Assembly: GCA_001768195.1 (NCBI GenBank)
Contig: MENI01000052.1
Span: 1-64,000 of the forward strand
Source: Bacteroidetes bacterium GWA2_40_15
GTDB lineage: Bacteria; Bacteroidota; Bacteroidia; Bacteroidales; VadinHA17
Reading direction: 5' to 3'
Length of the DNA: 64,000 nucleotides
This document shows positions 28,286 through 55,276 of this stretch, piece after piece. Position 1 is the first letter of the stretch. Each line of letters starts with the position of its first letter. The notes below the pieces were generated by a model. That model did not search any database, had not been told where the DNA came from, and saw only the letters and a program-made list of their open reading frames with translations. The position numbers and the translations under genes were made by a program.

Positions 28286-28498
28286 TTTAACCACAAAGGC
28301 ACTCAAAGTGATACACGAAGGCACACAAAGGGATAATTAAAAAACAACTCTTTTTATGCCAGCTTTTAAATGTCTAACATTAAAATTTACTAATAAACCT
28401 AATTTGCAGTTAGATAATTTTAAATACGTCTTCTATATTCATTTACTAAATTTACTTTGAGTTCCATTGTGCAATCCTTTGTTGCCTTTGTGGTTAAA
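28286..28498 (-). mobile_element. Decayed GxxExxY cassette with 16-bp perfect terminal inverted repeats
   Basis: TTTAACCACAAAGGCA at 28286-28301 is matched perfectly by its reverse complement at 28483-28498. Inner CACAAAGG-like words extend both arms. The minus strand in between keeps the last 30 codons of a GxxExxY gene (28337-28429). The total length is 213 bp, against 459 bp for the intact cassette at 53426. It fills most of the gap between the beta-helix and DUF4091 genes. Confidence 0.8.
28337..28429 (-). pseudogene. C-terminal remnant of a GxxExxY protein gene
   Basis: Read on the minus strand, 30 codons end in TAA and include YLKLSNCKLGLLVNFNV and GIKRVV. This aligns with the C-terminus of the intact GxxExxY protein at 53461 ([15 protein letters not shown] and GIRRYV). 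The upstream frame runs into a stop and the N-terminal signature and nuclease-like core are missing. Confidence 0.82.
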
Positions 28499-30552: not shown

Positions 30553-30719
30553 TAATATTGAGTCTACTCCGAAGAGTATATTTTTTTGCCACCAAGGCTC
30601 CAAGGCACAAAGTTACACCAAGAATAAGTCATTGAAAGATAAGCCCTTGGTGAACCTTGGTGTCTTTGTGTCTTCGTGGCAATTTCTTTTTTGGATTTAT
30701 CGGAGTGGACTCAATATTA
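30553..30719. mobile_element. 167-bp nested inverted-repeat element
   Basis: Outer arms TAATATTGAGTCTACTCCGA (30553-30572) and its reverse complement at 30700-30719 match at 19 of 20 positions. Inside them a second palindrome (30586-30682) has arms starting TTGCCACCAAGG, made of CACAAAG/CCAAGG words, around a 20-30 bp loop. There is no coding capacity. It sits in the 30,467-30,983 gap beside a UroD-family gene remnant. Confidence 0.82.
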
Positions 30720-52452: not shown

Positions 52453-53421
52453 ATGTCAGTATTAGTATATACAGAAAATTGGGACGGTAAATTCAAGAAA
52501 CTGTCATTTGAACTCGTCTCTTATGCAGCCGGCGTTGCAAAAATGACCGGTAGTTCAGTAACTGCATTATCAGTTGGCAGGGTTGAAGATGCCGAACTTA
52601 AAAAGCTGGGAGATTACGGAGCAGCAAAGATCGTGAATGTGAACAATGATCAGCTCGCCGTGTTCGATAGCCAGGTTTATGCAGGAGTGTTAGCTGATAT
52701 TAGTGCCGGGAAGGGATCAAAAATCATAATCCTGGCTAACAATAATACAGGCAAAGCAATTGCACCGCGTCTGTCGGTGAGGCTGAAGGCAGGAGTGGGT
52801 TCCGGTGTCAGCAGGCTTCCGCTTAATCTTAATCCTTTTACTGTTTATAAAAGGAGCTACTCAGGAAATGCATTTGCACACATGGAAATAAACTCAGATA
52901 TTAAAATACTGACTCTTGCCCAGAACTCATTCGACATTGCTTCAACTCCAAATACTGCAACAATTGAAAACACCTTTGTTACCATTGAAGCCTCGCAGGT
53001 GAAAACGGTTGTGAAGAATGTTGAAAAGCAGACCGGGAAGATGCTTTTAACCGATGCCGATATTGTTGTTTCAGGGGGACGCGGAATGAAATCTCCCGAT
53101 AACTGGGGACCGATTGTTGAGCTGGCTGACCTGCTCGGAGGCGCAACAGCATGTTCACGACCTGTTTCCGATGAGGGATGGAGACCTCATACCGAACATA
53201 CCGGGCAGACTGGCAAAATAATTGCCCCGAACCTTTACATCGCCGTTGGTATCTCCGGTGCAACGCAGCATCTCGCAGGAATAAGTTCCTCAAAATATAT
53301 AGTAGCTATCAACACCGACAAGGACGCTCCGATTTTCGAAGCAGCACAGTATGGTATAGTTGGCGATGCACTCAAAGTGCTTCCAAAATTAGTGGAGGCA
53401 GTAAAAGAAATTAAGAAATAG
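52453..53421 (+). CDS. etfA: Electron transfer flavoprotein alpha subunit
   Basis: 322 residues, the usual length. The C-terminal FAD domain has [48 protein letters not shown] and [21 protein letters not shown], which are diagnostic. It should dimerise with EtfB. A GxxExxY cassette begins 5 bp after its stop codon, so the operon is interrupted but not necessarily broken there. Confidence 0.96.
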
Positions 53422-53425
53422 TTAT

Positions 53426-53884
53426 TGCCACAAAGGCGCAAAGTCGCAAAGAATTGAAAGATGACACAACTTCTATCATCTGAAGAAGAAAGAATTGGGA
53501 AAGAAATAGTTAATGCATCATTTATTGTTCATAAAGCCTTGGGCCCCGGATTACTTGAGAAAGTATATGAGGTTTGCTTAAGTCATGAATTAAGAAAAGC
53601 AGGTCTAAATGTAGACAGACAAATTGATATTCCTATCGTTTATGATGGGATAACATTTGAGGAAGGTCTGAGACTTGATCTGTTGGTTAAAAGTAAAGTA
53701 ATAATTGAATTAAAGGCGGTTGATATCGTAAATCCTGTATGGGAGGCTCAGATTATAAGCCACCTTCATTTAACCGGGAAACGACTTGGATATTTGATAA
53801 ATTTTAATGTACCACTTATAAAGGATGGAATACGCAGATATGTCAAAACATAATAAATCTTTGCGCCTTCGCGCCTTTGTGGCA
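53426..53884 (+). mobile_element. GxxExxY cassette with 27-bp terminal inverted repeats
   Basis: TGCCACAAAGGCGCAAAGTC-type sequence at 53426-53452 is matched by its reverse complement at 53858-53884, 25 of 27 positions. The enclosed 405 bp consist almost only of one GxxExxY gene. The cassette sits between etfA and the Fe-S oxidoreductase gene. Without it the two would be about 35 bp apart, like the other genes of the operon. A decayed relative is at 28286. Confidence 0.85.
53461..53853 (+). CDS. GxxExxY protein (predicted PD-(D/E)XK nuclease fold)
   Basis: 130 residues. The signature Gly30-LL-Glu33-KV-Tyr36 lies in [18 protein letters not shown] (Asp73) followed by VIIELKA (Glu83, Lys85) has the spacing of the PD-(D/E)XK nuclease core, and this family is listed as PDDEXK_3 (PF13366) in my memory. 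A C-terminal [16 protein letters not shown] segment is also typical. Its biological role is unknown. It is the only gene inside a pair of 27-bp inverted repeats and is oriented with the etf operon. Foreign to the fatty-acid operon by function. Confidence 0.92.
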
Positions 53885-53917
53885 TTAAAAAGGTAATCCC
53901 AAACGAATATTTACAGC

Positions 53918-55237
53918 ATGCTGAAACAAATCATATTTACAATTACACTGCTGATAACTATCGGCGTCTTTTCTTATACAATTGACAGACTCATAAGCTT
54001 TTTCAGATTCACCCGGCCTGCATTCCCGGTAAAAGATATTGGAAAAAGAATAATGGTCACCCTCGCAGTTGCCATGGGACAGACCAAGATATTCCGCAAG
54101 CCTGTTATCGGACTGGCTCATGCGCTGGTTTTCTGGGGTTTCTGTGTAATTCTATTCGGAAGCATAGAAATGGTTATCGACGGATTGACCGGTACTGAAA
54201 GAGTATTAAAGGTACTGGGGGCCATCTATAATTTCCTTATGGCAACAGGCGATATTTTCGCTCTCATCGTTGCAATTTCAATCATTATATTTCTTTCACG
54301 CCGCCTCTTCTTTCACATCAAAAGGTTCGAAGGGATTGAAATGAAGAAAAGGTCGCATACCGATGCCAACATTTCTCTCTCTTTTATACTACTGTTGATG
54401 ATATCTCTTATGACAATGAATATCGGATATGTTGGATATGAAAAACTCTCCGGTGGGGATATCGCAGGGATATACCCTGTTGCAACCGTACTGGTAACAC
54501 TTTTTAAAGGAATGAATGCTGAAAGCCTCAAAATCGTTTACGAATCTTCGTGGTGGACGCATATTCTTTTAATCTTTTTCTTTGCAAATTATCTTCCTTA
54601 TTCAAAGCATTTTCATGTATTCATGTCGGTACCAAATGTATTTCTTTCGAGGCTCGATCCTCTGGGAAAGATTCCGAATATGGATAATGTGACCCGTGAG
54701 GTTAAGCTTATGCTTGATCCTGCAACTGCTTTTACGGCAGCGCCCGAAGGAGTTCCGGTTGAAAGGTTTGGGGTAAAGGATGCTGAAGATGCCTCCTGGA
54801 AGAACTATTTCGATTCATTGTCTTGCACCGAATGTGGCCGATGTACCTCAGTATGCCCGGCAAACATTACAGGCAAGAAGCTGTCACCCAGGAAGATAAT
54901 GATGGACCTGCGTGCCAGGATGAAAGAAAAAGGTCCGCTGATGGTTAAGAACGGGAGAGACTTCAGTGATAACAGGTCACTGCTGAGAGACTTCATTTCG
55001 GAGGAGGAGCTGTGGGCGTGTACAACATGTAATGCATGTGCTAAGGAATGTCCTATAAATATCAATCATCCGACATTAATAATTGATATGCGCAGATATC
55101 TTGTTATGGAAGAAGCTTCGGCTCCCGGAGAGCTGAAAGCAGTTTTTAATAACATTGAAAATAACGGTGCCCCATGGCAATACTCTGCTGAAGACAGGCT
55201 GAATTGGGCACGGGATCTGGAGATAATCATTAAATAG
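53918..55237 (+). CDS. Membrane-bound Fe-S subunit of ETF:quinone oxidoreductase (EMO-type)
   Basis: 439 residues. The N-terminal half has about six transmembrane helices of NarI type with haem-ligand-like His residues. Two 4Fe-4S sets follow: CTECGRCTSVCP and CTTCNACAKECP. This matches the membrane part of the EtfAB:menaquinone oxidoreductases known from syntrophic and Geobacter-type bacteria, where the CCG domain is often fused; here it is a separate gene 61 bp downstream. It would pass electrons from EtfAB to menaquinone. Confidence 0.9.
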   Translation: MLKQIIFTITLLITIGVFSYTIDRLISFFRFTRPAFPVKDIGKRIMVTLAVAMGQTKIFRKPVIGLAHALVFWGFCVILFGSIEMVIDGLTGTERVLKVLGAIYNFLMATGDIFALIVAISIIIFLSRRLFFHIKRFEGIEMKKRSHTDANISLSFILLLMISLMTMNIGYVGYEKLSGGDIAGIYPVATVLVTLFKGMNAESLKIVYESSWWTHILLIFFFANYLPYSKHFHVFMSVPNVFLSRLDPLGKIPNMDNVTREVKLMLDPATAFTAAPEGVPVERFGVKDAEDASWKNYFDSLSCTECGRCTSVCPANITGKKLSPRKIMMDLRARMKEKGPLMVKNGRDFSDNRSLLRDFISEEELWACTTCNACAKECPININHPTLIIDMRRYLVMEEASAPGELKAVFNNIENNGAPWQYSAEDRLNWARDLEIIIK

Positions 55238-55276
55238 TCTCTGTGGCTCTCTGTGCTTCTCTGTGGAACTCAGTGT
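55238..55276. repeat. Half-site of the CACAGAG repeat family
   Basis: CTCTGTGGCTCTCTGTGCTTCTCTGTG-like words run from immediately after the Fe-S gene stop codon. On the other strand they read CACAGAG/GAGTTCCACAG, matching words at 20171-20275. It is probably a relic of a palindromic element inside the operon. Confidence 0.5.

Follow-up and report, generated by a model that had tools for sequence, protein, structure and literature searches.

Several described systems pair a small gene with short repeats. In the accessible parts of PMC3116915 and PMC8049555, REPIN/RAYT systems comprise a chromosomal nuclease-type gene, encoding a Y1 HUH transposase (RAYT), that is flanked by repeats; these repeats are also dispersed as inverted doublets with variable spacers and are commoner where the gene is present. 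The systems persist vertically and are rare on plasmids, and RAYTs, by these accounts, do not copy themselves. Insertion sequences and miniature inverted-repeat transposable elements (MITEs) have inverted ends and internally deleted derivatives. The 23S rRNA intervening sequences, in the part of PMC4990558 available to us, hold a short and decaying open reading frame (ORF) for an S23/IVP four-helix-bundle protein between inverted ends, and have a selfish look. Here we analyse a locus with likenesses to each of these, a gene of the GxxExxY family lying between inverted arrays in the etf operon of Bacteroidetes bacterium GWA2_40_15, within a stretch of 64,000 nucleotides of contig MENI01000052.1 (the window). 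Our favoured reading, to which we give a probability of about 0.55, is that positions 53422-53888 form a one-gene cassette of a widespread class that has moved, and that the GxxExxY protein likely recognises, and would cut, the arrays at its own ends; such cutting is predicted to be what spreads cassettes and gene-less palindromes.

An earlier note on this DNA described the cassette as having 27-bp inverted ends. The match itself stands, with 25 of 27 positions agreeing between 53426-53452 and 53858-53884, and ungapped extension lengthens the ends to arms of 34 nt that are 88% complementary. They are not plain 27-bp terminal repeats, however, but inverted tandem arrays of a 7-nt motif, C-R-C-N-R-A-G/T. 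The left arm reads CACAAAG-G-CGCAAAG-T-CGCAAAG, three heptamers with 1-nt spacers, and the right arm, in inverse orientation, CACAAAG-G-CGCGAAG-G-CGCAAAG. The cassette and its neighbours are as follows.

53422..53455, plus strand: left arm, heptamers CACAAAG (53429-53435), CGCAAAG (53437-53443) and CGCAAAG (53445-53451)
53461..53853, plus strand: GxxExxY gene, 130 amino acids, PF13366 / TIGR04256, predicted PD-(D/E)XK-like, with D73, E83, K85 and Q97
53855..53888, minus strand: right arm, inverted, heptamers CACAAAG, CGCGAAG and CGCAAAG (53859-53881)
52453..53421, plus strand: etfA, the operon gene upstream of the cassette
53918..55237, plus strand: Fe-S (iron-sulphur) subunit gene, downstream of the cassette

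As the note had stated, the ends enclose a single ORF, that of the GxxExxY gene, and its estimate that removal would restore an operon gap of about 35 bp agrees with our count: excision of 53426-53884 leaves 37 bp between the etfA stop and the Fe-S gene start. The left arm ends about 5 nt before the GxxExxY start codon, leaving no room for a promoter, so the gene would be expressed from the host operon. A 17-mer end motif is found seven times in the window at up to three mismatches (0.17 expected from shuffles) and 24 times in the genome at up to two mismatches, against none with the reversed pattern.

The window protein matches TIGR04256 (GxxExxY) at E 9.3e-40 and PF13366 (PDDEXK_3) at E 8.7e-38, and its scores, 135.6 bits against a curated cut-off of 35 and 129.7 bits against one of 22, place it in the family. 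Its modelled fold is PD-(D/E)XK-like and it carries the D...(D/E)xK centre of that superfamily. The nuclease-like pattern pointed out earlier (Asp73, Glu83, Lys85) was correctly positioned; an alignment of 143 relatives has D73 in 141 of them, E83 in 138, K85 in 139 and Q97 in 138, so that the putative D-E-K-Q active site is conserved. Profile matches in the cassette were PF13366 and TIGR04256 alone, with no transposase family among them. Searches with the PADLOC defence models gave a single AbiEii match (E 0.032), and matches to defence or phage families were set aside as chance-level. At least 7,985 proteins match the family with E values of 1e-5 or below. Its name occurs in passing in the open-licence PMC literature, where we found no description of a function, of an element, or of a system joining heptamer arrays to GxxExxY.

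To survey other copies, 109 GxxExxY loci were drawn from two sources, 106 of them with sufficient flank; the inverted-match test left out three window copies (L001, L003 and L004). The left and right flanks gave an inverted match of at least 30 in 71 of the 106 loci, compared with a 99th percentile of 27 and a maximum of 31 for shuffled flanks. Mismatched pairs had a median of 23 and a 99th percentile of 50, a high control because motifs are common to different loci. At least two inward-facing heptamers lay within 200 bp on both sides in 76 of 102 loci, against one of 80 windows shifted by 1.3 kb, and heptamer density returned to background about 400-500 bp from the gene. The earlier note had named the absence of such ends at other GxxExxY genes as what would speak against it, and this is not what we see. 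Its remark that the cassette keeps the orientation of its operon also holds widely, the GxxExxY strand being shared by 90 of the 112 upstream neighbours that were called and by 87 of the 108 downstream ones. Gaps to the neighbours are short (medians of 24 nt upstream, n=69, and 38.5 nt downstream, n=60). Insertion strictly just after a stop codon was rejected (the upstream gap was the smaller in 20 of 40, p 0.64), as was a general outer terminal repeat beyond the arms, a comparison covering 95 cassettes having found none, with L114 and further arrays as the exceptions. At two loci (L083 and L094) the palindrome TCCCGATAGCTATCGGGA is lodged within the heptamer arrays, which would suit the entry of one small repeat into another.

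The arrays come in flavours, CRCNAAG, CRCNGAG, CRCNRAT and rarer kinds, which were assigned by regular expressions, and array flavour follows the GxxExxY protein. On a protein tree giving rough support (few columns, unsettled bootstrap), the labels change 36 times compared with 58.2 for shuffled labels (none of 200 shuffles was as low), and arm similarity follows protein similarity with rho 0.487 (0/500) once neighbour-sharing pairs are removed, the value for flanks 500-600 bp out being 0.017. Across 182 aligned heptamer pairs, the unconstrained fourth base is identical in 69 (62.3 if independent, 76.7 on average when permuted within a locus) and is unmatched between arms; transitions between arms were G-U compatible in 101 cases and incompatible in 139 (p 0.017). 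These two results suggest that the arms are maintained as motif arrays, and selection on an RNA stem was rejected. Two observations pull against this: arms are more similar within one cassette than between cassettes of the same flavour, and the four gene-less palindromes chosen for folding gave strong hairpins as single strands (z between -3.4 and -11.9).

Movement of the class is indicated by close protein pairs at unrelated sites. Among 38 pairs at least 85% identical, 22 have a common neighbour gene, which suggests that many cassettes are inherited in place, and 16 do not. In the checked pairs without a shared neighbour, DNA identity spans the gene and its arms and stops at or near the arms, indicating that the cassette unit has moved; L085 and L086 encode identical proteins and their DNA is 93.7% identical over 777 bp, reaching across further arrays. 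Further examples of identity over gene plus arms are L091 with L112, L114 and L121, L117 with L120, and L260 with L261 in one genome. The proposal that this is a mobile element therefore gains support for the class as whole-unit movement.

The window copy is not a fresh insertion into the etf operon. In a junction survey with classes assigned by eye, 59 genomes were searched, 58 matched and 48 junctions were read, G008 lacking upstream sequence. Of 47 readable etfA-FeS junctions in the genus, three hold an intact gene (G000, G018 and G080), four a remnant between arms and five arms only, and with 12 junctions thus occupied a recent insertion was rejected; seven of the others hold arrays of other kinds, and the remaining 28 have none of the above. 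Silent sites of the intact GxxExxY genes are as saturated as those of etfA (pS 0.65-0.89 vs 0.74-0.79), and pN/pS is 0.13-0.18, compared with 0.22-0.27 in etfA. This saturation and purifying selection imply that the insertion is old and that the protein stayed functional where it was retained intact. With G072 omitted, an etfA tree of 46 rows requires eight changes in the presence of the cassette, a patchy pattern implying losses, repeated gains or both. Vertical inheritance at one site, which the note had set against its own reading, is thus borne out in part by the occupied junctions and the saturation, the patchiness notwithstanding. At this site the cassette has persisted vertically and has repeatedly undergone internal deletion. 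Recent mobility is the wrong reading for the window copy and the right one for the class. At the G018 junction (L209) an intact cassette is followed in tandem by a second one that is internally deleted and whose right end, some 70 bp long, is identical. At L191, L192, L195, L204, L206, L210 and L211 the gene-less arrays in the etfA-FeS gap are of other flavours (CCGCAAAG, outward-facing CACAAAG), suggesting that this gap attracts or tolerates such repeats.

Arrays also occur without an intact gene, and the window holds three further features of this kind.

28286..28498, minus strand: decayed cassette, heptamer-type arms around a remnant of 28 codons of a GxxExxY C-terminus (28346-28432), the only other GxxExxY trace in the genome
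30586..30683, no strand assigned: palindrome of the same heptamer type, without a gene
55239..55275, minus strand: lone gene-less array, CACNGAG flavour, period 10, in the etf operon's following intergenic gap

The strict three-heptamer pattern was found in 37 of 61 relatives and the reversed pattern in none; in two further pattern searches the reversed controls were not clean (G018 2, G046 1; G012 16). As is described for REPINs, the repeats are commoner where the gene is present: arrays outside the genes' own arms occur in 26 of 32 genomes with GxxExxY and 10 of 29 without (odds ratio (OR) 8.2, p 2.7e-4), this and the following genome-level tests being uncorrected for relatedness. The association is seen within flavours, for CACNGAG arrays with CRCNGAG genes (OR 10.5, p 0.004) and for CRCNAAG arrays with CRCNAAG genes (OR 3.7, p 0.04), and CRCNAAG arrays with CRCNGAG genes gave OR 2.1 (p 0.32). 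Partial correlations with array number, own arms included, were 0.44 for GxxExxY (p 4e-4), 0.16 for four-helix-bundle genes and 0.06 for Y1 transposases, and the last were rejected as the source of array number. In G058, 20 of 42 pattern matches form ten inward-facing pairs 40-81 bp apart, palindromes with variable loops and without terminal repeats of the kind seen in G018. In the latter genome, an element bounded by GAGCC..CTCCGAAAA terminal repeats and showing 6-bp duplications encloses 15 of the 20 palindromes fetched, and this burst was rejected as proof of mobilisation by GxxExxY. The amplified G018 element is related to a 153-bp element of the window (30560-30712) that encloses the window palindrome, has GAGTCTACTCCGA / TCGGAGTGGACTC ends and shows AATATT as its 6-bp duplication. 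CTCTGTG heptamers occur in primers, given in the accessible part of PMC3090145, for a Bacteroides fragilis promoter region (BF2782) that can invert, which suggests that such an array adjoins a phase-variable switch.

We propose that the PD-(D/E)XK-like protein would recognise its own end arrays and cut there, in DNA rather than RNA, and that cutting may lead to the spread of both cassettes and gene-less palindromes; the enzyme's part in array spread is likely. Expression of the promoterless gene through the host operon would account for its co-orientation with the neighbours. The arrangement would then work as REPIN/RAYT does, with a chromosomal nuclease gene maintaining a population of small palindromes, and the likenesses include the flanking repeats, inverted doublets with variable spacers (the G058 pairs and the window palindrome), vertical persistence and rarity on plasmids. 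The system differs from the REPIN/RAYT of those sources in having a PD-(D/E)XK-like protein, repeats made of a 7-nt motif in tandem array and a cassette that has itself moved, and it falls outside RAYT/REPIN membership because the protein is no Y1 transposase. Unlike insertion sequences and MITEs, the cassette has no transposase family match, its array ends are degenerate and no target duplication was readable. From the intervening sequences, as PMC4990558 presents them, it differs in its unrelated protein, in lying in a protein-gene operon and not in rRNA, and in that stem selection is unsupported here.

A number of results weigh against this proposal. Ten genomes without GxxExxY still carry arrays, the genome associations disregard kinship, and subtracting a flat two or four arrays per gene changes the Fisher p to 0.07 and 0.60. 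CACNGAG arrays are also associated with CRCNAAG genes (OR 5.4, p 0.0075), a nonzero cross-flavour signal, and 33 of 143 loci have no flavour label under the regular expressions. The G018 burst is no evidence for the nuclease because its palindromes are nested in another terminal-repeat element. Most near-identical proteins sit at one site, with 11 of 15 pairs at least 90% identical sharing a neighbour gene (11 of 23 at 85-90%). No target-site duplication was readable at cassette ends, where a close empty site for comparison was lacking, and clear two-sided inverted arrays flank only two of seven plasmid relatives (Bernardetia and B. finegoldii, by eye).

A parallel is offered by four-helix-bundle genes (PF05635, 23S rRNA IVP), of which there are 13 in the same genome and which are present in 51 of 61 relatives. 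Their loci lie between inverted short-repeat arrays, 26 of 37 scoring at least 30 compared with 3% of mismatched pairs; L172 passes by way of a duplicated coding gene, and L145, itself a duplicate, was left out. The array motifs (L166-L172 in the same genome, L136-L165 in relatives) include GTGAGG, GTTCAAA and CGGTACGA, and seem to follow protein subfamily, arm and protein similarity being correlated with rho 0.251 (5/500; control 0.05), more weakly than for GxxExxY. Only tentatively do we suggest a new minimal class of elements, in which lone PD-(D/E)XK nucleases of each GxxExxY subfamily might spread their own array flavour as CACNNAG-type palindromes, with four-helix-bundle genes as a convergent second version using other codes. 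If so, the REPIN/RAYT way of life would have arisen with an unrelated nuclease, and perhaps with four-helix-bundle proteins too. A link to GxxExxY would account for one kind of short repeat scattered through these genomes, and for this very common family of unknown function the cognate end arrays offer a testable substrate.

Other explanations were considered. GxxExxY might be cargo with another task, the units being moved in trans by a transposase or by replication slippage on hairpins. The nesting of the G018 and window palindromes in a terminal-repeat element, the strong hairpins of the folded palindromes and the sharing of the layout by unrelated four-helix-bundle genes all suit such a passenger, yet the array flavour follows the protein, Y1 transposase number does not account for array number once GxxExxY is included and the surveyed cassettes have no general outer terminal repeat; we consider this rather unlikely.

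Binding of the arrays as regulatory sites for operon transcription, with movement incidental, would suit the tight co-directional gaps in which cassettes lie, and the available part of PMC8049555 discusses REPs as regulatory. A repressor, however, needs no conserved nuclease centre, and arrays occur on both sides of the gene and at many gene-less sites, which makes this role improbable. Pairing of the arms in the transcript, with processing of the mRNA there by GxxExxY or RNase III as in 23S rRNA intervening sequences, would explain why arms are most alike within a cassette, and splicing endonucleases appear in the PDB list; set against the deficit of G-U-compatible transitions and the unmatched free base, it is the least probable of these explanations.

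For the subfamily of the proposed array-cutting nuclease, carriage by phages or plasmids was rejected. There were no matches among 50,697 phage records, no viral contig was confirmed in one scan using two peptide patterns, and among 72,556 plasmid records there were seven matches, all below 60% identity. By eye, the Gemmatirosa plasmid locus has an array on the right and a single heptamer on the left, that of Sphingomonas an array on the left only, and those of Treponema, Prevotella and Fusobacteria repeats that are direct or of other kinds. At the Fusobacteria locus (L315) the repeat flanking the GxxExxY gene is direct and some 20 bp long, in place of inverted arrays. One algal virus has a gene annotated as GxxExxY in the accessible part of PMC12085832.
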